Source of the DNA: Clostridiaceae bacterium
GTDB taxonomy: Bacteria; Bacillota; Clostridia; Peptostreptococcales; Natronincolaceae
DNA: 64,000 nucleotides
Assembly (NCBI GenBank): GCA_020832135.1
Contig: JAFIFG010000011.1
Location: forward strand, 18,330 to 82,329
Reading direction: 5' to 3'
Shown: positions 23,551 through 35,363 of the stretch, piece after piece
How the letters are laid out: each line of letters begins with the position of its first letter
Position numbering within the stretch: the first letter of the stretch is position 1
Program-made: the position numbers and the translations under genes
The notes under the pieces: generated by a model
What the model saw: only the letters and a program-made list of their open reading frames with translations
The model's database searches: none
What the model was told of the DNA's origin: nothing

Positions 23551-23949
23551 ATGAAAAAAACTGAGGAACAGATTGAACTATATACTAAATTTTTTCATGG
23601 TTTATCTAACCCTACAAGATACAATATTATTTTAGCCCTCATTGATAAGGAAAAAAGTGTAGGAGAATTAGTTGAAGAGTTAGGTTATTCTCAAAGTCTA
23701 ATCTCTATGCAGTTAAAATGTTTAAAGTGGTGCAACTTCGTAACTTCTATTAAAGAGGGAAAAAATATTTACTACTCGATTGCTGACGAAAGAATAGTAT
23801 CTCTTCTTCAATTAGGGGAAATAATTGCAGAAGGAAATACAGAGCAAATATGCACATGCAGTGTAATACAAGTAGAAAGAAGTAAGATGGAAAAAGACGT
23901 GGAAATAGTAGAAAAAGGTGTAGCTAACTGTTGTTGTGAAGATTGTTAA
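23551..23949 (+). CDS. ArsR-family regulator with Cys-rich C-terminal tail
   Basis: 132-residue winged-helix repressor. ATG 23551 follows GGAGG; a further in-frame start at 23470 lacks an RBS. The helix-turn-helix is the ArsR pattern: FFHGLSNPTRYNIIL, then SVGELVEELGYSQSLISMQLKCLKWCNFV and the wing KEGKNIYYSI. The C-terminus is unusual: CTCS near residue 107 and a final NCCCEDC. ArsR repressors release DNA on binding As, Cd, Hg or similar thiophilic ions, and the cysteine cluster is a likely sensor site. It stands ahead of the Sao-type cassette and probably controls it through the palindrome at 24181-24210. Confidence 0.8.
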   Translation: MKKTEEQIELYTKFFHGLSNPTRYNIILALIDKEKSVGELVEELGYSQSLISMQLKCLKWCNFVTSIKEGKNIYYSIADERIVSLLQLGEIIAEGNTEQICTCSVIQVERSKMEKDVEIVEKGVANCCCEDC

Positions 23950-23969
23950 AAAAAAGCATAGTATTTATC

Positions 23970-24027
23970 CAATAGCTATCTTTAGTAAAAAAAGATGTAT
24001 TTTTACTAAAGGTAGCTATTTTATTTT
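23970..24027 (+). terminator. Terminator after the ArsR-type regulator
   Basis: AATAGCTATCTTTAGTAAAAA pairs with TTTTTACTAAAGGTAGCTATT around GATGTA, with one bulge, and is followed by TTATTTTTA. It separates the regulator from the cassette, so the cassette must have its own promoter. Confidence 0.85.
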
Positions 24028-24703
24028 TAGGATATAGTAAATCTAATGAGATGTGGTGTAATGCTTTCGTTATAATATTTAGATGTATATTAAAAGGTAT
24101 TAAATTTTTTTATAGATAGATAAAACACTATTGAAAAAATCGAATTAACAAAGTTAATTTTAATGCTATAATGTTAAATGCATATCAATATTTTTTGATA
24201 TTTTGATATGTACCTTTTAAACAACATGAAAAAACAAATCATCTAGGGGGTGTCTTAGATAAAAAAAATAGTCGTTTTATATTAGTTAAATAAATGCTTG
24301 TAGCTCATGTAAAAACAGTGAAATTTATGTATTAAAATCTGATGGAGTTGGTAAAAAGCTTTGGCAAGAATTATGGTGTGCTCAAAGAAGTAGCTTTAAT
24401 GGTAGCATATAAACATACAGTTCTTTCCTGTATGTATGCCCTATGCAGCTTGGAGAGAAAAGTAAAAAAACCCATAGAAATTTTCTATGAAAATGAAGGG
24501 AACTATTTAAAACTTCGAATTGTAAAAATATTAACAAGTGATACAATGAAAATGGTTGTAAGATACCCACTGTATAGGAAGGGGAAGTTATATAAATTTA
24601 TATTAAATTGTAGGTACACCATTATCTATGTTCAAAATACAAAAAACATATAAAGAAAACAATATATGTTTATGTATAAAAATTACAATGAAGAGGTGAA
24701 AAA
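24028..24703. other. Promoter/leader region of the Sao-type cassette
   Basis: It holds a good promoter and operator (24145-24210) and then a leader of nearly 490 bases before the thioredoxin-like gene. An open frame at 24342-24653 could encode 103 residues but has no RBS and no familiar motif, so I do not call it. Small hairpins (CATACAG/CTGTATG at 24415-24435 and CATAGAA/TTCTATG near 24472-24490) are visible. I could not match the leader to a riboswitch. Confidence 0.4.
24145..24210 (+). promoter_or_regulatory. Promoter and palindromic operator of the Sao-type cassette
   Basis: TTAACA (24145-24150) and TATAAT (24167-24172) are 16 bases apart. Starting nine bases further on, CATATCAA (24181-24188) and TTGATATG (24203-24210) form a perfect inverted repeat, with another TGATAT at 24196-24201. 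The operator would cover the transcription start, which suits repression by the ArsR-type protein encoded upstream. Confidence 0.6.
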
Positions 24704-24964
24704 ATGGCTAAGGTTTTAGTAGAACTTATCAATACCTGCCCTAGTTGTGATCAATATGAAAGAATGATTAAGGAAGTAGAGGATAAGTATCCTGAAGCTA
24801 TAGATACAAAAATTTATTATGCCGGTAAAGATTTTGATTATGTTAAAAAGTACGGTGTAGTAATGAAGGGTACTATGATCATCAACGGAAAGAAAAAAAT
24901 AGATAATTTATCAAAAGATACTATTGAAAAAGCAATTCGTGAGGCTGTGGAGGAAAATAAATGA
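24704..24964 (+). CDS. saoT: Thioredoxin-like protein of the Sao cassette (SaoT)
   Basis: 86-residue thioredoxin-fold protein, cytosolic, with a redox pair Cys12-Pro-Ser-Cys15 in LINTCPSCDQ near the N-terminus and a cis-Pro-like GTMIINGKKKID segment later. It is shorter than thioredoxin and resembles the small redox proteins found beside metalloid permeases. In relatives I recall as SaoT, one cysteine may be selenocysteine; here both are ordinary Cys. RBS AAGAGGTG precedes the ATG. Its stop overlaps the start of the permease gene (ATGA), so both are translated together. It likely reduces or hands over a thiol-bound metal or metalloid. Confidence 0.75.
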   Translation: MAKVLVELINTCPSCDQYERMIKEVEDKYPEAIDTKIYYAGKDFDYVKKYGVVMKGTMIINGKKKIDNLSKDTIEKAIREAVEENK

Positions 24965-26076
24965 TAATTTTTGCAATAGTTGAAAGGGCATTGCAAACAA
25001 GCTGGCAGCTTTTAAATGGGGCTTCAATGTGGTTAATTATAAGCTTTGTTTTTGCAGGATTTCTGAGAACTTTATTAAATCCAGCTAAGTTTCAAAAAAT
25101 GCTTGGCAATAAAAAGGTTTCATCTGTTGTGAAGAGCACTTTATCAGGTATGTTTTTACCTATGTGTAGTTGCGGTGTTATTCCTTTAGGATTAAGCTTG
25201 TATTATTCTGGGGCGTATTTAGGACCTACACTTGCTTTTATGACAGCGACACCTATTATTAATCCTGCAGCAGTGATATTGTCCTTTGGATTATTAGGAC
25301 CTCAAATTGCTGTGATTTATTTAGTAGCTGGATTTGTAATTCCTGTAATCATTGGCATTGTCAGCAATATGTTTGCAGGAGAAGAGATTTGCCTACATGG
25401 TTTAGAGGAGGCATCTGTAGAAGAGGAAGAAGCGATTGCTTTTGAGACAGAGGAGCAATCGGGTATAGTAGAGAATATAAAATCCTCCCTACAATGGGGA
25501 TTCACTGACTTAGGACTAACAGTAAGCAAATATGTTATACCGGGGATGTTGTTTGCAGGCTTAGTTTTATCTATTGTACCCCAAAGGTTTTTTCAGCAAT
25601 ATTTTGGAAATCCCGGGATGATTTCTATTGGAGGAGTTGCTGTGGCCTCCAGCCTAATGTATGTATGTGCTGTAGGGCATTTGCCCTTTGTCGCAGCTTT
25701 AGTTGCTAGTGGTGCAGCGCCAGGAACAGCTATTACTTTTTTATTGGCGGGAACAGCCACCAATCTTCCAGAGCTAATTAGTATATATAAGTTGATAGGC
25801 AAGAGGGCTGTGACGATGTATTCGATATTGGTGGTTTTTTCTTCCCTTGTAGTAGGGTATTTAGCTAATTTATTACTACTACCAGGATTTACTCCCTTTA
25901 TCAACTTTGATAGAAGTAGTAGATCCATAGAGATGGCAAATCGCTTTATATTCAATGCCCCTGATATCGTAAAATATATATCCTCACTAGCTGTTATATA
26001 CCTTTTTTTGTGTGCTGCTTTGCCAAAAACAAAACAATTTTTAGAAAAAATACGAATAACCATTAAGGGTGTATAG
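24961..26076 (+). CDS. saoE: Permease of the DUF318/ArsP type (SaoE)
   Basis: 371-residue integral membrane protein of the UPF0718/ArsP permease family. Around eight hydrophobic segments flank a charged cytoplasmic loop (about residues 140-175). The family signature MFLPMCSCGVIPL is seen with Cys69 and Cys71 at the membrane, and a second half-site reads YVCAVGHLPFVAALVASG. ArsP members export organoarsenicals; the CxC motif fits a soft-metal substrate. It starts inside the saoT stop and is followed after two bases by the lipoprotein gene. I assign SaoE from memory of the cassette. Confidence 0.78.
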   Translation: MIIFAIVERALQTSWQLLNGASMWLIISFVFAGFLRTLLNPAKFQKMLGNKKVSSVVKSTLSGMFLPMCSCGVIPLGLSLYYSGAYLGPTLAFMTATPIINPAAVILSFGLLGPQIAVIYLVAGFVIPVIIGIVSNMFAGEEICLHGLEEASVEEEEAIAFETEEQSGIVENIKSSLQWGFTDLGLTVSKYVIPGMLFAGLVLSIVPQRFFQQYFGNPGMISIGGVAVASSLMYVCAVGHLPFVAALVASGAAPGTAITFLLAGTATNLPELISIYKLIGKRAVTMYSILVVFSSLVVGYLANLLLLPGFTPFINFDRSSRSIEMANRFIFNAPDIVKYISSLAVIYLFLCAALPKTKQFLEKIRITIKGV

Positions 26077-26078
26077 AT

Positions 26079-26561
26079 ATGAAAAATGAAAAGATTTTAG
26101 TTATATGTGTATTATGCTGTACCTTTATATTTCTAGTAGGATGTAGTGCTATTTTCATGGAGGACAGTAGTGTTTCTGGGAAAGAACTTAGTGTAGCAGA
26201 GGACCATGAAATATTAACCTACTTTAGAGAGAAATACCCTGACTATACCATCATAAAATGCGGTGAAGAAGATGTAACAGGGAATGGTTTTAAAGATTTA
26301 ATTGTTATTCACAATAGAAACAAAGAACAAAATTCTATGGTTGTAATTATGAACAATGGAGATGGTGATTATGGTTTTTCTAATGAATTACCTGCTCCAG
26401 CTGAGAATCAACAAATAGAATTTAAAGATATAGACAATAAGCCACCGATAGAATTTATCGTATCTGGATCAAAGGGAAGTAATTTCGGTTTAGCTATCTT
26501 TCGCATGGTGGAAGGAGAGATAGTGGATCTATTTGCTGATGGGTTTGAGGACTGTTGTTAG
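26079..26561 (+). CDS. saoC: Lipoprotein with Cys-Cys carboxyl end (SaoC)
   Basis: 160-residue exported lipoprotein. A lipobox LVGC puts the lipidated residue at Cys22. The centre has an integrin-like repeat pattern (CGEEDVTGNGFKDLIVIHN, then MNNGDGDYGFS). The last two residues are Cys-Cys (GFEDCC), followed at once by TAG. A terminal pair of cysteines fits a docking or capture site for a soft metal outside the membrane and matches the Cys-Cys-COOH family I recall as SaoC, in which the end can be selenocysteine. It begins two bases after the permease stop. Confidence 0.75.
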   Translation: MKNEKILVICVLCCTFIFLVGCSAIFMEDSSVSGKELSVAEDHEILTYFREKYPDYTIIKCGEEDVTGNGFKDLIVIHNRNKEQNSMVVIMNNGDGDYGFSNELPAPAENQQIEFKDIDNKPPIEFIVSGSKGSNFGLAIFRMVEGEIVDLFADGFEDCC

Positions 26562-26657
26562 GTTCTATATTAAATATTTTAAAAAGAAAATTTGATGGCT
26601 GATAGTTTTATTTTCAAAAACAAAATTAATATCAATAGATTGGAGAGAGTGAAGTTT

Positions 26658-27782
26658 ATGAAAAAATTTAAGTTTATAGCAACCATGCTGGTAGTACTTA
26701 TGTTTTCAACTATATTCCTAACAGCTTGCAATGATAGTGGAGATAAAGAAGCTTCAAAGGGGTCAGAAGAAGATTATGTAATTAATATGGGATATTACAA
26801 TTGTGACCATATGATAGCGGGACCATTGGGAGAGATGGTAGGCTTCTTTGAGGAACAAGGGTTGAATGTAGAGGTAACTGGAAATGGACAAGTACCTCAA
26901 GCTATGACGGCAGGGCATATGGATGTAGGATACATAGGGACTACGGGACTTTTAAGGGCTTTCTTACTGGATGCACCTATTAGAATAGTAGCAAACAATC
27001 ATATAGGGGGATCAATGTATCTTATTGTTTCCAATGACATTAAAGAGCCAGAGGATTTGATTGGAAAGAAGTTGGCGATTGGCTCGCAACCTGAGTTGAA
27101 TGGAACTTGGATTTCCGCTTCACAGAATTTAGGTATCCCGCTAGAGGCAGAGCATTACGAGACCTATGACTTTGGATCAGATCAAGAAAAATTTTTAGCT
27201 TTAAAACTTGGTCAAATAGATGGTTTTACAGCCTGTGATCCGTGGGGCTCTATGGCGGAATACGAAGGTATAGGATATAGAATGAATACCTACTATAAAC
27301 TTCCTACTGATAAGCTTGGAGCTTGTTGTATGCTTTCTATGAATAAAAACTTTATTGAAGAGCAACCTGAATTAGCTAAGAAAAAGATTTTGGCCCATAT
27401 AGAGTCTCTTAAATATATTTACCAGCAGCCACTTCAGTCGGCAAAGGCATTTTCACATGTTTTTCAAGTGCCGTTGGAGGTTTCTTTAAGAACGATATAT
27501 GTAAAAACTGTAGAAGATGGTCGTTCGCTTACATGGAAGGTTTATCCAGAGTATCTTGAAAATATGGTGGAGTTTTTGATGGAGTATGGCTTGTTAGAGA
27601 AAGAGCCAAATATTGAAGAAGTAACACATTTAGAATTATTAGAGGAATTAAAAGCTGAAAGAGATGATATTGATTTTGATGCTTTTATTAAGGAATTTGT
27701 AGATCCAATATTCCCACTAGGGATGGATTACGAAGAATGGAAGGAAAAGGCATATGAAGTGGATGAGGGATCAAGGATATAA
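26658..27782 (+). CDS. NitT/TauT-type ABC substrate-binding lipoprotein, Cys-rich
   Basis: 374 residues from ATG 26658, which follows TGGAGAGAG; an upstream TTG at 26592 lacks support. A lipobox FLTAC follows the signal. The fold is the SsuA/NMT1 type: GQVPQAMTAGHMDVGYIG, VANNHIGGSMYLIVSNDIKEPEDLIGKKLAIGSQPE-like, then QIDGFTACDPWGSMAE. Unusual for this family are several cysteines at ligand-pocket positions: NCDHM near the N-terminus, ACDPW, and GACCML. That suggests a thiol-bound cargo, such as an organometal, rather than a sulfonate or nitrate. It lies upstream of and overlaps the MerB-like gene by 29 bases if that gene starts at 27754. Confidence 0.75.
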   Translation: MKKFKFIATMLVVLMFSTIFLTACNDSGDKEASKGSEEDYVINMGYYNCDHMIAGPLGEMVGFFEEQGLNVEVTGNGQVPQAMTAGHMDVGYIGTTGLLRAFLLDAPIRIVANNHIGGSMYLIVSNDIKEPEDLIGKKLAIGSQPELNGTWISASQNLGIPLEAEHYETYDFGSDQEKFLALKLGQIDGFTACDPWGSMAEYEGIGYRMNTYYKLPTDKLGACCMLSMNKNFIEEQPELAKKKILAHIESLKYIYQQPLQSAKAFSHVFQVPLEVSLRTIYVKTVEDGRSLTWKVYPEYLENMVEFLMEYGLLEKEPNIEEVTHLELLEELKAERDDIDFDAFIKEFVDPIFPLGMDYEEWKEKAYEVDEGSRI

Positions 27783-28437
27783 CAATAGAATGTTAGACAA
27801 ATCCTTACTAGATCAATTGGAAATTGAAAGTATACATTCTAATTTGAATTTAAAAGAAAGAGCAGTAAGGAAGTGTTTAATAGAGCATGTGCTAGAAAAT
27901 AAAGCTTCCTGTGGCAGTCGACACATAGCTTCGAAGCTGAAAATGGGTGTAGAGGAATTAGAAGCAACGATGGATAGCCTTATAGAGAAAAATGCTATTG
28001 TTACAGATGAGAATAAAAATGTACAATTTATCTATCCAGTTTCAACCTTGCCAACTGAACACAAAGTAATACTTCAAGATGGTAGATGGCTCTATGCTAT
28101 GTGTGCTATAGATGCTATGGGGGTAGCCTTTACTCTTCAACAGGATATAAGCATTACATCCCAATGCGCAGCATGTGGAGAAGAAGTGGATATAGAGATG
28201 GTAAAGGGTGAAATAACCTATGTTCAACCGGAGGAAGTACATATTCTCCATATGGATTTAAGTAAAATAGATAATTGGGCTGGTAGCTGCTGAAATATTA
28301 TGAAATTCTTCTGTAAGGAGAAACATTTTGAGCAGTGGGTTGAGGCCAATAAGATTAACAAGGAAGGTATTTTTTGTTTAAATATCCATGAAGCAAGAAT
28401 CGTAGCAAAAATGCTCTTTAATGTGGAGGATAAGTAG
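27754..28437 (+). CDS. saoL: MerB-like organometal lyase, selenoprotein with in-frame UGA (SaoL)
   Basis: A MerB (alkylmercury lyase) homologue whose frame continues through TGA 28291-28293 to TAG 28435-28437 (227 codons). Before the TGA are a winged-helix start and the lyase motif DGRWLYAMCAID, whose Cys117 and Asp120 match catalytic Cys96 and Asp99 of MerB. After the TGA the frame still reads MerB-like: NIMKFF, then HFEQW and NIHEA. The TGA is residue 180 in SCUN, at or next to the second catalytic cysteine (Cys159/160 of MerB). A hairpin TTCTTC/GGAGAA with loop TGTAA starts 12 bases after the TGA, its loop at base 19. ATG 27790 is an alternative start. Reading TGA as a stop would remove the active-site region. 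Confidence 0.82.
28306..28322 (+). promoter_or_regulatory. SECIS-like hairpin in saoL
   Basis: TTCTTC (28306-28311) pairs with GGAGAA (28317-28322), including one G-U pair, around TGTAA. The loop begins 19 bases after the UGA and has G as its second base, within the loose bacterial SECIS consensus as I know it. It is weaker than the one in saoP. Confidence 0.5.
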
Positions 28438-28459
28438 TAGATAAAGGTTGGTATAAATA

Positions 28460-29263
28460 ATGAAATTAATATACAAACATATGATTGCCTTCTGTACACT
28501 GGTTATTATAATCACTGGATTTTCACAAATGCTAGGCAATAAAAATTTGCAAGATAAAATAAAAATAGCTGTTGGAGATGATATTTCTGGTGTGGTATTT
28601 GACTATATGATAGAGGTTAAAGGGATAGAAGATGCTGTTATGCAGAAGGGCTTTGAATCCTATCCTATACAGGATTGTTGTAGCAATACTACACAATGGG
28701 CTTTGGCTTCAGGAGCTTTAGATATTGCCATACTATGTCCCAATGCTGCCGAAGTGTTAATTGAAATGGATGATAGCTTCATGGTGGTTGGACCAGTGAT
28801 TTTGAATTCAGATATTTTTGTTGTGAAGGAAGGAAAAGTGCCCAAAAAGATAGGCATAACTCAAAATCGGCATTATCAAGAGATACTAGCAAAAAAGAAA
28901 TTTGGAGAAGAGATAGAAATAGTACCTATGATAACAACAGCATTACCATATACCTATGAAAAGGATATGGTGGATGCTGTTGTCATAGATGTACTTCGAG
29001 GCTTAAAGATGGACGGTATAAAAAAAGCAACAGCAGATGTGAAAACACAGCCCTCCTATGTATTGGTGGTACAGGAGGAGTTTTATGGAGAGGACCAATA
29101 TCATTATTTTATGGATGTACTTGGAGAAACAGTTGATGAGATAGAGGATACAAATACTTTTTTAGGAGTTATAAAAAAGTTTCAAGAGATTGACTTTACC
29201 CAGGAGGAGGTGAAAACATGGCAATTAATGAAAACAAAATTTATTCACCCAGAGAAAAAATAG
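28460..29263 (+). CDS. saoB: Membrane-anchored substrate-binding-like protein with Cys-Cys (SaoB-like)
   Basis: 267 residues. One N-terminal hydrophobic segment (MIAFCTLVIIITGFSQML) serves as anchor or uncleaved signal, and there is no lipobox. The rest resembles a type 2 periplasmic binding protein (IKIAVGDDISGVVFDYMIE, ALASGALDIAILCPNAAEVL, GKVPKKIGIT) and has a DCCSNT motif near residue 72. The Cys pair again suggests binding of a thiophilic ligand. It directly precedes and overlaps the permease gene by 46 bases, so it is the likely partner of that ABC transporter. The symbol is given from memory of the cassette and is less sure than for its neighbours; the other binding protein at 26658 could hold the name. 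Confidence 0.6.
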   Translation: MKLIYKHMIAFCTLVIIITGFSQMLGNKNLQDKIKIAVGDDISGVVFDYMIEVKGIEDAVMQKGFESYPIQDCCSNTTQWALASGALDIAILCPNAAEVLIEMDDSFMVVGPVILNSDIFVVKEGKVPKKIGITQNRHYQEILAKKKFGEEIEIVPMITTALPYTYEKDMVDAVVIDVLRGLKMDGIKKATADVKTQPSYVLVVQEEFYGEDQYHYFMDVLGETVDEIEDTNTFLGVIKKFQEIDFTQEEVKTWQLMKTKFIHPEKK

Positions 29264-30033
29264 TAAAAAACGTAGGGAAGGGATTGGCTTACAATATTAT
29301 GTATAAGCTAATCACCATTTTACTAGCTGGGACCGTCTGGTATATTGCTTCCTGGAGATTAAATAGTGATTTATTGCTACCTTCTCCCTTTACTACAGCA
29401 AGGGCTTTCTTAAATGCCATTACAGATGAAGTTGTTTTAAAAAACATAAGTATTACCATGGTCAGAGTATTTAAAGGATTCGGTTTGTCTATGGCTATTG
29501 GAGTACCTTTAGGATTTTTGATGGGTTTTTCAAAGATAGCAAATAATATACTGGGAACCCTTATTGACTCCATAAGACAAGTACCTATTATGGCATGGGT
29601 ACCTCTAACTATTATTTGGTTAGGCTTAGGAGATGGCCCTACCATATTTTTGATTACTATGTCTGGTATCTTTCCTGTAATCCTTAATACTATTACAGGT
29701 GTCCAGAATATTTCTAAGGATTATTACAATGCAGCAAAGACTATGGGGGCATCCCGTTGGAGCATTTTAAAGGATATTGTTGTTCCAGCTACTTTACCGG
29801 ATATCATGGTGGGGGCAAGACTTGCCATGAGTTTAGGCTGGATGTCTGTTATCTGAGCGGAGTTCATTGCCACGAGTGCCGGGTTCGGTTACTCTTTAGT
29901 TCAAGCTCAAAACTTTTTAAAAACAGATATGTTGTTGGCATTAATGCTAATGGCGGCTATTATTGGTTTTACTATAGATAGAGGCTTAAAATTGGTAAAT
30001 AGATATATAAATAAATGGAGGTTTATTAATTAA
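29218..30033 (+). CDS. saoP: ABC transporter permease, selenoprotein with in-frame UGA (SaoP)
   Basis: NitT/TauT-type permease of 271 residues, if TGA 29854-29856 (residue 213) is read as selenocysteine. Before it stand the BPD signature region (LGDGPTIFLITMSGIFPVILNTITG, then AAKTMGASRWSILKDIVVPATLPDI) and the conserved GARLAMSLGWMSVI. After it the frame continues with the expected family end: AEFIATSAGFGYSLVQAQ, one more membrane segment and NRYINKWRFIN. The family normally has a small residue where U falls. The true stop TAA overlaps the start of the ATPase gene (TAATG), so the read-through frame is what the operon is built around. RBS GGAGGAGGTG. A strong SECIS-like hairpin follows the UGA. 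Confidence 0.88.
29874..29894 (+). promoter_or_regulatory. SECIS-like hairpin in saoP
   Basis: GAGTGCCG (29874-29881), loop GGTT (29882-29885), CGGTTACTC (29886-29894). Eight pairs form, one of them G-U, with a single bulged T in the right arm. A GGU loop with a bulged U is just what E. coli fdhF SECIS uses for SelB binding. The loop starts 26 bases after the UGA. Confidence 0.75.
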
Positions 30034-30812
30034 TGAGACTTGAAATTAATGATATTAGCAAGTCATTTATAAATAATGGAGAAACCCATCAAGTGTTAAA
30101 GGATATTAGCTTTACTATAGAAGAAGGAGAATTTGTTACTTTATTAGGACCTTCAGGCTGTGGGAAAACAACACTGTTAACGATTATAGCTGGATTTCAA
30201 CAGGCGGAAGAGGGAGAAATAGTATTGAACGACAAAAAGGTAGTAGCCCCTGGCCCTGACAGAGGTTTTGTTTTTCAAAATTATGCACTTTTTCCGTGGA
30301 AGACCGTAAGAGAAAATATTCTATACCCTATGAAACAATTAAAGGTTCCGAAGGCAGAGAGGGAGAAACGTCTAGAGGAGCTTTTAAAAATGGCTCAACT
30401 GGAGGGAAAAGGAAGTTTATATCCCCATCAGTTATCTGGTGGAATGAAGCAGAGAACGGCTGTTATTCGTGCACTGGCAAGTCGTCCACAGGTATTACTA
30501 ATGGATGAACCATTAGGGGCAGTAGACTTCCAAATGAGAAAAGATCTTCAAGAACAACTGGAAGCTATGTGGATTAAAGATAGAACAACTGTAATTATGG
30601 TAACTCATGATGTAGACGAGGCAGTTTATATGAGTGATCGTGTTATTCTCATGTCCAACGAACAAGGGAAAATCCTTGCTGACTTATCTATTCCACTAGA
30701 AAGACCAAGAGATAGAGAAGGTAAAAAATATACGATGTATAAGCAACAGTTGATGGATTTATTAGGAAACAAAACTATAAAGAAGAAGGAGACAATTTAC
30801 CAAGTTGTTTAA
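30033..30812 (+). CDS. saoA: ABC transporter ATP-binding protein (SaoA)
   Basis: 259-residue ATPase of the nitrate/taurine/aliphatic sulfonate type. Walker A is GPSGCGKTT at residues 39-47, the Q-loop is FVFQNYALFPWKT, the signature is LSGGMKQRTAVIRAL, Walker B is VLLMDEPLGAVD and the switch is VTHDVDEAV. Its ATG overlaps the saoP stop by one base. It should energise uptake through SaoP. The gene itself has nothing unusual; the substrate is inferred from the neighbours only. Confidence 0.88.
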   Translation: MRLEINDISKSFINNGETHQVLKDISFTIEEGEFVTLLGPSGCGKTTLLTIIAGFQQAEEGEIVLNDKKVVAPGPDRGFVFQNYALFPWKTVRENILYPMKQLKVPKAEREKRLEELLKMAQLEGKGSLYPHQLSGGMKQRTAVIRALASRPQVLLMDEPLGAVDFQMRKDLQEQLEAMWIKDRTTVIMVTHDVDEAVYMSDRVILMSNEQGKILADLSIPLERPRDREGKKYTMYKQQLMDLLGNKTIKKKETIYQVV

Positions 30813-30831
30813 AAAATGAAGGGGCAATAAA

Positions 30832-31135
30832 GTGAAGGTTGCATATGTAATTAGTTCAGACAATTCAAGAAAAATATTAAGGGATATGATTATTCCACAA
30901 ATGGAGAAAGAAAATCATGGTGCAGAGGTAAACAGAAATTGCTGAAAGACTACAAAAGCTTCATGATGAGAAGGGACTTGTATTATTAGCCTGTGATCAA
31001 TGTACTTATGAGAGGGAATTAGAAAACAAGCTAATTCCTGGAGCATCTATTGGTTGTTTTCCAATACTATATGCAACATTGAATTCAGCAGGCGTAGAGC
31101 AGATTATAACTAAAAGCTCTACTTCAATGAAGTAG
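30832..31135 (+). pseudogene. saoD: Frameshifted DsrE-like gene (SaoD remnant)
   Basis: Starts at GTG 30832 after GAAGGGG with KVAYVISSDNSRKILRDM, then IIPQMEKENHGAEV, a DsrE-like opening. After base ~30929 the frame breaks: the original frame soon meets TGA, while a frame in another phase (from about 30932) continues with ITERLQ-like TEIAERLQKLHDEKG, then LACDQCTYEREL and IGCFPILYATL, up to TAG 31133-31135. The stretch expected between the halves seems to be lost, so a deletion with frameshift is the simplest reading. Reading TGA as selenocysteine does not rescue it. The CDQC and GCFP motifs fit a sulfur- or metal-handling partner. A sequencing error cannot be excluded, but it would not replace the missing middle part. 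Confidence 0.7.
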
Positions 31136-31147
31136 GGCTTTTTCTAT
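31111..31147 (+). terminator. Terminator at the end of the Sao-type cassette
   Basis: AAAGCTCTACTTC pairs with GAAGTAGGGCTTT around AAT, followed by TTTTCTAT. The arms lie in the last codons of the saoD remnant. Confidence 0.85.
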
Positions 31148-31226: not shown

Positions 31227-32375
31227 ATGAGCAATTTACCAGAAATGTTCCATGAATTTAGTGAAGCTAGACAAAAGGGGTTTATGGAAATTAAAGCATT
31301 AAAAGAACAGGGAAAGAAAGTAGTTGGTATATATTGTACCTATACACCGATAGAATTAATCATGGCTTCAGATGCAATACCTATTGGATTATGCGGGACA
31401 AGTGAAGAGGTTATTCCAGAAGCAGAAAAGCATTTACCAAGAAATTTATGTCCTCTTATCAAGTCAAGCTATGGGCATGCTATAACAGATACATGTCCGT
31501 ATTTCTACTTTTCTGACTTACTGGTAGGGGAAACCACCTGTGATGGTAAGAAGAAAATGTATGAGTACTTAGGCGAAATAAAGCCAATGCATGTTATGCA
31601 ATTACCACAAACAATGAAGGATAAAAATGCATTCAAAGTTTGGCGTGATGAGATCGTTTTATTAAAAGAGCATTTAGAGAAGGAACTGGAAGTTGAAATT
31701 ACAGAAGAAAAATTAAAGGCAGCTATTAAAGAGCGTAATAAGGAAAGAAGAGTATTGAAGGAATTTTATGAATTAGGAAAACTTTGTCCACCACCTATTA
31801 CTGGAACAGAAATGTTTCAGGTTTTATATGGCTCGGAATTTAAAGTGGATAGACAAGAAAAAACAGCCTATATCAAGAATATGATTAAAGAAATTCAAGA
31901 GAAATATGAAGAAAATAAAGGGAAAGTTTCTCCAAAATCCCCCAGAATCCTTATTACTGGTTGCCCAATTGGTGGGGTATCTGAAAAAATACTAAAAACC
32001 ATTGAGGAGAACGGTGGCACGATAGTGTGTTTCGAAAACTGCAGTGGTGTCAAATCAACAGATCGATTAGTAGATGAGACTATTCATCCTATTGATGCAT
32101 TAACTGAAAAGTATTTAAATATTCCTTGCTCTGTTATGTCTCCAAATAAAGATAGGTTAGAACTACTATCTAAACTGATTGATGAATACAAGATTGATGG
32201 TGTTATAGAAGTAATTTTACAAGCCTGTCACACCTATAATGTAGAAAGCTATAGTATTAAAAAATTTGTCAATGAAGAAAAGAATAAGCCCTATTTATAC
32301 TTAGAAACCGATTATTCACAATCAGATACAGGACAACTGAAAACCCGTATTGCTGCCTTCCTAGAAATGATGTAA
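31227..32375 (+). CDS. Double-cubane-cluster-type reductase (2-hydroxyacyl-CoA dehydratase D family)
   Basis: 382 residues from ATG 31227, which follows GAGGGGG; an upstream ATG at 31146 lies in the terminator of the previous gene. It belongs to the HgdB/FldC-type D-subunit family and resembles the double-cubane-cluster proteins (YjiM-like) that use an ATP-driven activator. Conserved cysteines are seen in VVGIYCTYTPIELIMASDAIP, LPRNLCPLIKSSYGHAI, TDTCPYFYFSDL and VGETTCDGKKKM. GTEMFQVL and ILQACHTYNVES lie in the second half, where the last cysteine also belongs to the cluster set. No activator ATPase gene lies in the window. It may supply low-potential electrons to a small substrate. A link with the flanking metal-type systems is possible but unproven. 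Confidence 0.8.
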   Translation: MSNLPEMFHEFSEARQKGFMEIKALKEQGKKVVGIYCTYTPIELIMASDAIPIGLCGTSEEVIPEAEKHLPRNLCPLIKSSYGHAITDTCPYFYFSDLLVGETTCDGKKKMYEYLGEIKPMHVMQLPQTMKDKNAFKVWRDEIVLLKEHLEKELEVEITEEKLKAAIKERNKERRVLKEFYELGKLCPPPITGTEMFQVLYGSEFKVDRQEKTAYIKNMIKEIQEKYEENKGKVSPKSPRILITGCPIGGVSEKILKTIEENGGTIVCFENCSGVKSTDRLVDETIHPIDALTEKYLNIPCSVMSPNKDRLELLSKLIDEYKIDGVIEVILQACHTYNVESYSIKKFVNEEKNKPYLYLETDYSQSDTGQLKTRIAAFLEMM

Positions 32376-32514: not shown

Positions 32515-33675
32515 GTGATTAAAAAAATGAAATTAATCAGTGTTTGCTTACTTGCTATTACCATTCTTTTTGGTTGTAGCAATGATCAGGAAGTTGTGGG
32601 AGAAAATCTTGAAAGTGTACCGACATTAGGAATAGGTTATATGTTTAGTAATCATCAAACTCCGCTGATTGTAGCAGCTGCAAAGCATGAGGATTTTAAA
32701 GATGAAGGTGTATACTTTAAAGAGGTTATGCCAAAGGAAAAGTATATTTTGATGGAGGGAGATAAAGAGGTAGCTAATATTGACTTAATAACAGCCAACA
32801 ATGGGGGAGAAGTAATGACTATGATGGGACAAGGTCATTTAGACATGGGATTATCCTCCATGACTCTACCTATTACGTCCATAGATAAAGGAGCAAAAAT
32901 GAAAATTTTAAGTCCTATTCATGCTGATGGGATAGCATTAGTTATGCCGCATGATTCAAGTGTGGAGGATCTAGATACTTTTATAGCTTATACAGAGAAC
33001 AGAGAAGAACCAGTAAAAATAGGCTACCATTCACCTGTTAATGCACCAGTGATCCTTTTTGAAACAGCAATGAAGGAAATGGGAATTAGAAGCACGGAGA
33101 ACCCAGAAGATGTAGATGCTGATATTCTATTAATAAATTTAAAAGGAACAGCTAACTTGATGCCGGCACTACTTAGTGGAGAGGTAGATGGATGGGTTGG
33201 ACCTTCGCCTTTTCCAGAGTTAGCAGAACTTAATGGTGCAGGAAAGATTGTACTAGATATGAGGGATTTACCGTCAACTAGTGAGACTAATGAAGTTGAA
33301 GAATATGGTTACTGGCATGAATTTCCTTGCTGTGTTTTCTCTGCCAATGATAGTGCTATCGAAGAGCATCCAGAGGTTGTAGAAAAAATGCTTGAGCTTT
33401 TAACGATAGCATCTGACTTTGCTAATAACAACCGTGAAGAAACAGGAAAAATTGTGTCTGATTGGATGGGTGTAGATGAAGAAGCGGCTAAAAATACTAT
33501 AACAGTATTTACAACAAACCCAAATGAAAGATGGCAAGGTCATGCTGAGCTTATTTATGAAGTATTACAAAATAGTGGTAGACTTGAGGAAAATTTAAAA
33601 GAAAGATCATTTGAAGAGGTAAGGGAAAACATGTTTGACCTTAGTTTTGCAAATAGGATTTTACAGAACCGCTAA
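32515..33675 (+). CDS. NitT/TauT-type ABC substrate-binding lipoprotein with Cys-Cys
   Basis: 386-residue lipoprotein, GTG start after GAAGGAGA. The lipobox is ILFGC (Cys21). The fold is NMT1/SsuA-like: GIGYMFSNHQTPLIVAAAKHEDF, GQGHLDMGLSSMTLPI, GYHSPVNAPVILFETAMKEMGI, and GEVDGWVGPSPFPELAEL. Near residue 275 a WHEFPCCVFS motif contains adjacent cysteines, as in the binding proteins of the cassette upstream. It heads a three-gene ABC operon with the permease at 33714 and the ATPase at 34560. The substrate is unknown; the Cys pair and the location hint at a related thiophilic compound. Confidence 0.75.
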   Translation: MIKKMKLISVCLLAITILFGCSNDQEVVGENLESVPTLGIGYMFSNHQTPLIVAAAKHEDFKDEGVYFKEVMPKEKYILMEGDKEVANIDLITANNGGEVMTMMGQGHLDMGLSSMTLPITSIDKGAKMKILSPIHADGIALVMPHDSSVEDLDTFIAYTENREEPVKIGYHSPVNAPVILFETAMKEMGIRSTENPEDVDADILLINLKGTANLMPALLSGEVDGWVGPSPFPELAELNGAGKIVLDMRDLPSTSETNEVEEYGYWHEFPCCVFSANDSAIEEHPEVVEKMLELLTIASDFANNNREETGKIVSDWMGVDEEAAKNTITVFTTNPNERWQGHAELIYEVLQNSGRLEENLKERSFEEVRENMFDLSFANRILQNR

Positions 33676-34559: not shown

Positions 34560-35363
34560 ATGAAGGAAATTATTAGGCTTAGGGAAGTAAATAAAACTTT
34601 CACTTCAGAGAAAGGCCATAACATTGAAGCTTTACAGGATATTAATTTGTCAATAGAAGAAAGTCAATTCATCTGTTTGTTAGGACCCAGTGGATCAGGG
34701 AAATCAACCCTTCTACGACTAATGGCTGGATTGATGGATGCTAGTGAAGGTGAAGTTGAAGTGATGGGGAAATCTATAAAGAAGCCTATATCAGAGGCAA
34801 GTATGGTATTTCAAGAATACTCCCTATTACCGTGGAGGAACATAATTGATAATGTAGCCTTTGGTTTAGAGGTAAGGAAGGTTCCTAAAAAGGAAGGATA
34901 TGCAATAGCCCGCAATATATTAGGAAAATTCGGATTAGAGGGATTTGAGAAAAACTATCCCTATGAGCTTTCCGGAGGGATGCAGCAAAGAGCTGCTATA
35001 GCGAGGGCGATGGCCGTATCTCCTGAAATACTATATATGGATGAACCCTTTGGGGCGTTAGATGCACATACAAGGTTACAAATGCAGCAGGAATTAATTT
35101 CTTTTTGGTTGAAGGATAAGAGAACAATTGTATTTGTAACCCATAGTGTGGAAGAAGCTATCTTCCTAGGAACAAGAATAATTGTCATGAGTAGCAGACC
35201 GGGAAGAATTATAGAAGATTTTCAAATAGATCTACCTTATCCTAGAGATAGGTGGAGTGGAAAATTTGGACATTATTTTAATAGGCTCATGGATTTGATG
35301 AATGGAAAAAGCAGTATAACAGAAGAATATAGTGAAGTTTATAATCAATGTAATAACCTATAG
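34560..35363 (+). CDS. NitT/TauT-type ABC transporter ATP-binding protein
   Basis: 267-residue ATPase. Walker A GPSGSGKST at about 41-49, Q-loop MVFQEYSLLPWRN, signature LSGGMQQRAAIARAM, Walker B ILYMDEPFGALD and VTHSVEEAI are all present. It completes the transporter encoded from 32515. It is 12 bases downstream of the permease gene with AAAGGTGG upstream, and is followed by a terminator at 35436. Confidence 0.88.
   Translation: MKEIIRLREVNKTFTSEKGHNIEALQDINLSIEESQFICLLGPSGSGKSTLLRLMAGLMDASEGEVEVMGKSIKKPISEASMVFQEYSLLPWRNIIDNVAFGLEVRKVPKKEGYAIARNILGKFGLEGFEKNYPYELSGGMQQRAAIARAMAVSPEILYMDEPFGALDAHTRLQMQQELISFWLKDKRTIVFVTHSVEEAIFLGTRIIVMSSRPGRIIEDFQIDLPYPRDRWSGKFGHYFNRLMDLMNGKSSITEEYSEVYNQCNNL

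Follow-up and report, generated by a model that had tools for sequence, protein, structure and literature searches.

The SAO system was reportedly described by Haft and Gwadz in 2023. A review (PMC13188914) mentions an operon for the SAO system, for which it refers to that 2023 paper, and lists SaoL, SaoC, SaoX, SaoB, SaoP and SaoT among selenoproteins, with selenocysteine (Sec) in SaoL (as CU) and in SaoP. Several other described systems resemble parts of it: the SsuABC, TauABC, NrtBC and CmpBCD importers have related binding-protein, permease and ATPase families, and the organomercurial lyases MerB and MerB2 share the whole-length fold of SaoL. The locus considered here lies in a 64,000-nt window (the whole stretch of Clostridiaceae bacterium DNA that was analysed), with all sao genes on the plus strand at 24704-31135. 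A preliminary description of this stretch had listed nine plus-strand genes and an ArsR-type regulator, and every feature it named is present in the sequence. It had also put forward the name Sao, which proved right when the proteins were searched against the NCBIfam models, although the acronym it gave, SaoTECLBPAD, identifies the set but leaves out SaoX, with which there are nine genes.

Families were assigned by the curated NCBIfam cut-offs, with Pfam as a cross-check. The comparison loci are the best 80 of 134 with a SaoE alignment, taken from one-genome-per-species contigs, which with the window make 81; they were read in all frames with TGA kept open, and each Sao family was aligned with the window row included. 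A full-context set comprises the 47 loci in which SaoE is flanked on both sides by 8 kb or more. The eight contiguous intact proteins encoded at 24704-30812 each exceed the cut-off of a different NCBIfam Sao family (T, E, C, X, L, B, P and A), which is not attributable to chance, and the stretch is a genuine SAO locus, of a known but uncharacterised kind. The present analysis adds the alignment of the SaoL Sec with MerB Cys159, a path of cysteine (Cys) and Sec positions, an optional lyase, a double-cubane neighbour and a second, Cys-based importer, the last two encoded past position 31135, where the preliminary description ended.

The first gene, saoT (24704-24964), encodes a thioredoxin-like protein with a CPSC motif (NF040730, 138 bits, cut-off 65), the Cys form of two columns that hold Cys or Sec in 82 of 82 rows. 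It is followed by saoE (24961-26076), an efflux permease of ArsP_1 type that contains CxC and YVC motifs (NF040736, 533 bits, cut-off 325; Pfam ArsP_1) in which three columns are Cys or Sec in all 83 rows; against the SO_0444 Cu/Zn efflux transporter model SaoE scores 201.5 bits, under the cut-off of 300. The product of saoC (26079-26561) is lipoprotein-like and ends in Cys-Cys-COOH (NF040734, 173 bits, cut-off 80; both columns Cys/Sec in 77 of 77 rows), and saoX (26658-27782, in a frame open from 26592) encodes a substrate-binding lipoprotein in which four columns are Cys or Sec without exception, in 74 of 74 rows (NF040735, 450 bits, cut-off 300). The MerB-like lyase gene saoL (27790-28437) is read through a UGA (Sao model, 191 bits, cut-off 140; Pfam MerB), and saoB (28460-29263) encodes a substrate-binding protein with a DCC motif (Sao model, 284 bits, cut-off 140), the Cys form of a column with 39 Sec, 34 Cys and one gap among 74 rows. 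An ABC permease, likewise read through a UGA, is encoded by saoP (29218-30033; NF040733, 385 bits, cut-off 295; Pfam BPD_transp_1) and an ABC ATPase by saoA (30033-30812; NF040729, 444 bits, cut-off 360; Pfam ABC_tran). The last gene, saoD (30832-31135), is a DsrE-like remnant lacking about 16 internal codons relative to ten intact relatives; as the preliminary description had stated, it is broken, with the frame from GTG 30832 ending at a stop at 30945 and the C-terminal half in another frame. The two intact relatives run against the SaoD model (NF040732), those from L034 and L043, both pass. Compared with the SAO system as described, this locus thus agrees in all eight intact proteins and in the UGAs of saoL and saoP, which match the Sec listed in PMC13188914. 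It differs in the broken saoD, in having Cys forms of SaoT, SaoC, SaoX and SaoB, and in the position of saoL, since the order saoX-saoL-saoB was seen in no other locus row compared.

The UGAs of saoL and saoP are predicted to be read as Sec. That of saoP (29854-29856, plus strand) lies in the conserved motif WMSVI(U)AEF, at a column with 64 Sec and 9 Cys and nothing else in 73 rows, the window included; NrtB and CmpB have Ala at this position. It is followed at 29874-29894 by a hairpin resembling a bacterial selenocysteine insertion sequence (SECIS), with loop GGTT (GAGTGCCGGGTTCGGTTACTC, -8.0 kcal/mol). The UGA of saoL (28291-28293, plus strand) falls in a column of 48 Sec, 4 Cys, one Trp and one gap (54 rows, two of them fragments). 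Sec machinery, the absence of which the preliminary description had said would speak against it, is found in the host genome: tRNA-Sec (72 bits) and SelB (385 bits) were found by model, and inspection of translations by eye showed selA and selD in the same cluster. SelB also occurs in 13 of the 14 genomes examined that have Sec-bearing loci. A guanine in the first two loop bases of the following hairpin separates Sec from other codons for SaoB (30/39 vs 11/34) and SaoL (42/47 vs 1/5); SaoP is not separated (59/64 vs 7/9), and the two SaoT columns give 12/23 vs 37/59 and 18/24 vs 28/58. At the SaoP, SaoL and SaoB columns 10 of the 81 loci are free of Sec, five of which have permease and binding-protein genes (L037, L045, L060, L093 and L094) and five of which are cut by contig ends (L021, L023, L030, L076 and L097). 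In a single metagenome-assembled genome (MAG), SaoE has an in-frame TGA at the otherwise invariant Cys of YVCAVGH (L091:6959-8137), so that this copy of the exporter may carry Sec.

In profile alignments to 1s6l and 5c17, the predicted Sec of SaoL is aligned with MerB Cys159, and in that with 1s6l a Cys and an Asp of SaoL also stand at MerB Cys96 and Asp99. Because of this match at Cys159, the selenol-containing lyase suggested in the preliminary description gains support. The differences from MerB and MerB2 are the Sec in place of Cys at 159, scores that miss the MerB equivalog cut-offs, and the setting within a transporter gene set. A few SaoL relatives lack the usual CU-N-I-M motif (L040, with a run of Cys; L049, with CW at or near the site; and L061).

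Family alignments show Cys/Sec positions conserved through the binding proteins, the permease and the exporter; invariant or nearly invariant Cys/Sec in the Sao binding proteins and permease distinguishes them from the sulfonate, taurine, nitrate and CmpBCD importers, NrtB and CmpB having Ala in the permease. As far as sequence comparison can indicate, it is moderately probable that the proteins of the SAO locus capture a thiol-bound organometal, likely an organomercury compound such as methylmercury, pass it inward along Cys/Sec ligands, split the carbon-metal bond and export the metal. In such a scheme SaoX and SaoB would bind the compound outside the cell through their CC and Cys motifs, and SaoP and SaoA would import it, with the permease Sec as a ligand on the path. 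SaoL would then protonate off the organic group, the residue equivalent to Asp99 donating the proton while Sec and the counterpart of Cys96 ligate the metal, after which SaoT and small thiols would release the metal and SaoE would export it; in many relatives, the double-cubane reductase described below may add a reductive step. The direction of transport is suggested by family membership, and mercury is the likeliest candidate for the substrate. Anaerobes degrade methylmercury where classical merB is rare, and to our knowledge the enzymes of anaerobic methylmercury degradation are largely unknown. Judging by the names on their records, the fetched SAO loci belong to clostridia, syntrophs of the Pelotomaculum type, Desulfopila and Lachnospiraceae of the gut. 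These loci are concrete candidates for that degradation, because most of those with full context encode a MerB-like lyase with a predicted Sec at the catalytic site.

Several observations count against this account. A single-sequence alignment of SaoL to 1s6l leaves a gap at the Cys159 column and puts the Sec at Cys160, and SaoL falls below the cut-offs of both MerB equivalog models (66.9 bits against 193 and 60 against 200), for which reason it is called MerB-like and is not filed as MerB. The hairpin after the saoL UGA is weak (-3.7 kcal/mol), and by SECIS hairpin energy the Sec codons of SaoP, SaoB and SaoT cannot be told from other codons, while those of SaoL stand out only weakly (p 0.048, 47 vs 5). 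SelB was not detected in one MAG with a Sec-bearing locus (L095), and it is present in five of the six genomes examined that have zero-Sec loci, the genome of L093 being without it. A link to mercury methylation is unconvincing: HgcA is over its cut-off in 5 of 29 SAO genomes (those of L060, L061, L073, L086 and L090), and the background is high in the classes of four of these carriers (131/242 and 36/246, carriers included), L060 being without a control; in the window genome, no HgcA is over the cut-off. The saoD gene of the window is broken. Finally, saoL is missing from 9 of the 47 full-context loci, and when 14 genomes of the 28 saoL-less loci were searched whole, 13 proved to be without SaoL and one to have it elsewhere, several of these 14 being incomplete assemblies.

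This last set of observations gives weight to a reading in which the core genes serve to carry thiol-bound soft metals in general, organic or not, and the lyase, the DsrE-like protein and the reductases are add-ons that depend on the host, a possibility that we hold only tentatively. The preliminary description had offered a lack of co-occurrence in other genomes as a ground for rejecting the cassette; SaoT, SaoE, SaoC and SaoB occur together in all 47 full-context loci, with SaoP and SaoX in 46 and SaoA in 45. The other genes are less constant: SaoL is present in 38 of the same loci (and in 53 of all 81) and SaoD in 32, and neither the double-cubane gene nor a molybdopterin oxidoreductase is a nearly constant part. 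From the absence of saoL in the nine loci and 13 genomes, cleavage by SaoL appears to be an add-on that is not essential to the core, and the absence of saoD from 15 of the 47 loci suggests that its loss is tolerated, so that saoD is not treated as defining. Against a purely general carrier, the presence of SaoL in 38 of 47 loci ties the system to carbon-metal cleavage in most hosts, including that of the window. The sequence of uptake, cleavage and export proposed in the preliminary description therefore stands for hosts with SaoL, the window host among them, but not for the saoL-less hosts.

The substrate could instead be a methylated arsenical, imported by the sulfonate-like transporter and processed by a reductase and SaoL, with SaoE exporting a trivalent product, although this seems rather unlikely. 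SaoE carries Pfam ArsP_1 and the upstream regulator is of ArsR type, but members of both families act on other metals too. The nearest families of SaoX and SaoP outside Sao are sulfonate, taurine and nitrate importers, and arsonates resemble sulfonates; a reductase gene is moreover a frequent neighbour. The lyase, however, is MerB-like in sequence and fold and keeps the mercury-binding residues, and we know of no case in which MerB cuts carbon-arsenic bonds.

One such neighbouring reductase is encoded directly after saoD, at 31227-32375 on the plus strand, just behind a terminator-like hairpin (31112-31142, plus strand; a 14-pair stem followed by a T-rich tail) that may close the sao genes. 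The product passes the model for the double-cubane-cluster anaerobic reductase (NF040772, 554.7 bits, cut-off 350) and resembles the double-cubane cluster protein (PDB 6eno, 7yyl), aligning with 6eno over its own residues 21-382 of 382 (271 bits). In a draw of 398 genomes spread evenly over the phylum, which overlaps in part with the fetched loci, SaoB is over the cut-off in 9 genomes (two more being weak and below it) and the double-cubane family, counted at E <= 1e-100, in 117; the latter is present in all 9 SaoB genomes and in 108 of the remaining 389 (Fisher p 1.3e-5). The two genes lie 0.9-3.8 kb apart on the same contig in six genomes (G000, G047, G095, G201, G328 and G402) and on different contigs in G183, and adjacency is not judgeable in G096 and G217, which have saoB on contigs of 4.3 and 7.2 kb. 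Adjacency in 6 of the 7 judgeable genomes has a chance of about 1.7e-12 at the observed copy numbers, with genomes treated as independent. Of the 81 loci, 36 have a double-cubane gene within the stretch that was fetched (39 before a stricter score removed L030, L082 and L093), and in 21 it lies within 500 bp of a sao gene. Seven of 58 double-cubane candidates were run against NCBIfam, and the window copy and five of the six others pass. An activator-like gene cluster occurs in 15 loci, and the one member run against models passes TIGR00241. The link makes the reductase a second candidate enzyme besides SaoL.

A single origin of the SAO-linked double-cubane genes was rejected. A tree built from 56 copies near SAO genes and 21 others requires 12 label changes, at least nine of them forced by supported branches, so gain or loss of the pairing must have happened several times. 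The SAO-near copies nevertheless cluster, since shuffled labels give a mean of 18.4 changes and 0 of 500 shuffles are as low. Four of the 56 SAO-near rows, one each in L093, L036, L090 and L092, are divergent with a long branch and are probably not true double-cubane proteins; that of L093 scores 215 bits against the cut-off of 350. Sec in the double-cubane protein was considered and rejected, the TGA codons in the last alignment columns being stops. Nor is mutual exclusion of lyase and reductase supported: 21 of the 47 full-context loci have both, 17 SaoL only, 7 the reductase only and 2 neither (Fisher p 0.28; 0.68 by genus label, at the looser double-cubane threshold). Two more double-cubane copies are present in the host genome, at L111 (G000:C81:1000-14000) and L112 (G000:C62:8700-21900); the C81 copy, which carries an in-frame TAG, is the nearest row to the window copy, at 76% identity over 287 columns.

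Some co-occurrence of Sao and double-cubane genes is already in print, since PMC10418091 names Sao and dicubane genes as putative selenium genes in its methyltransferase clusters, tied to methyl-selenide metabolism. For a single genome, PMC5322559 lists genes resembling 2-hydroxyglutaryl-CoA dehydratase in the vicinity of selenium genes. In open-licence articles, which do not include the 2023 SAO paper, no recurrent tie of the double-cubane protein to SAO loci or to the PCC-motif importer described below was found. Haft and Gwadz may have noticed the link, because NF040772 and the Sao models carry neighbouring accession numbers. A role in salvaging organoselenium, with ties to clusters of methyl-selenide genes and to the double-cubane protein, would fit the placement in PMC10418091 but is improbable: by eye rather than by model, no methyltransferase cluster was recognised among the 40 largest neighbour clusters, the Cys/Sec ligands would suit a soft metal ion better than selenide, and some SAO loci are entirely without Sec. 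Poorest of all is the prospect that the locus is decaying, with both UGAs as stops, since only saoD, with its internal gap and frame change, is damaged: the remaining eight frames run unbroken (TGA being read as Sec in two of them) and are over equivalog cut-offs, both UGAs stand in Sec/Cys columns, and saoD is also absent from 15 of the 47 full-context loci.

Beyond the double-cubane gene, on the same strand, is a second importer that in sequence comparisons is related to SaoX, SaoP and SaoA but is not made of SAO subunits: X2 (32515-33675), a substrate-binding lipoprotein with a PCC motif (SaoX model, 50 bits, cut-off 300); P2 (33714-34547), a permease with the motif WMCLVSAEM (SaoP model, 161 bits, cut-off 295); and A2 (34560-35363), an ABC ATPase (SaoA model, 256 bits, cut-off 360). 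PCC is present in all 12 X2 sequences read, the window copy included, and P2 in 11 of the 12 X2 loci (all but L139), with WMCLVSAEM in 10 and WGSLVAAEM in L144. The Cys of WMCLVSAEM precedes the position of the SaoP Sec by three residues, or about one helical turn, which suggests where a soft-metal ligand may lie in such permeases. X2 relatives were found in 16 of 383 genomes, 15 of which also have the double-cubane family (the exception being G102), and the X2 and double-cubane genes are at most 2.6 kb apart in seven (G000, G062, G132, G247, G282, G121 and G151), of which only G000, the window genome, has SaoB over the cut-off. A Cys-based import system beside SAO thus seems to share the double-cubane reductase; no description of an X2P2A2-type system was found in open-licence articles. 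More speculatively, and with low confidence, two adjacent soft-metal importers, the Sec-based SAO and the Cys-based X2P2A2, might be joined by a shared ATP-driven double-cubane reductase for oxygen-free organometal uptake, with breakage by a selenol lyase or by reduction. If true, this would supply the physiological role that the double-cubane protein still lacks.

A molybdopterin oxidoreductase is encoded in 17 of the 81 loci (two of the matches being weak or partial), at most 60 bp from a sao gene in nine; the loci include L021, L023, L025, L026, L029, L031, L032, L062, L072, L073, L084, L085 and L088. Six of these proteins were run against NCBIfam, none exceeding an equivalog cut-off, and no twin-arginine translocation (Tat) signal was seen by eye in the six. 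As to mobile carriage, SaoE has no plasmid match at 1e-40 and no phage match at 1e-20.

The ArsR/SmtB-type metalloregulator (23551-23949, plus strand; NF033788, 76.4 bits, cut-off 55; Pfam HTH_5) has a Cys-rich tail with CTC and NCCCEDC and is a probable regulator. The preliminary description placed the nine genes behind it, and it is indeed upstream, but 754 bp separate it from saoT with a terminator-like hairpin (23972-24019) in between, so that it is probably on its own transcript, apart from the sao genes. Single hairpins of this type are weak evidence, because a scan found 6 vs 6.4 in shuffles. In six other loci (L057, L059, L065, L078, L084 and L100) a regulator that appears by eye to be MerR-like lies 38-229 bp from the sao genes, that of L078 having no NCBIfam match at 1e-30, and LysR-like regulators occur in 11 loci other than these. 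Between the regulator and saoT of the window is an open frame of 103 residues (24342-24653) with no Pfam match at 0.01, and upstream of this frame is a promoter-like site with 11 of 12 matches (24145-24172).

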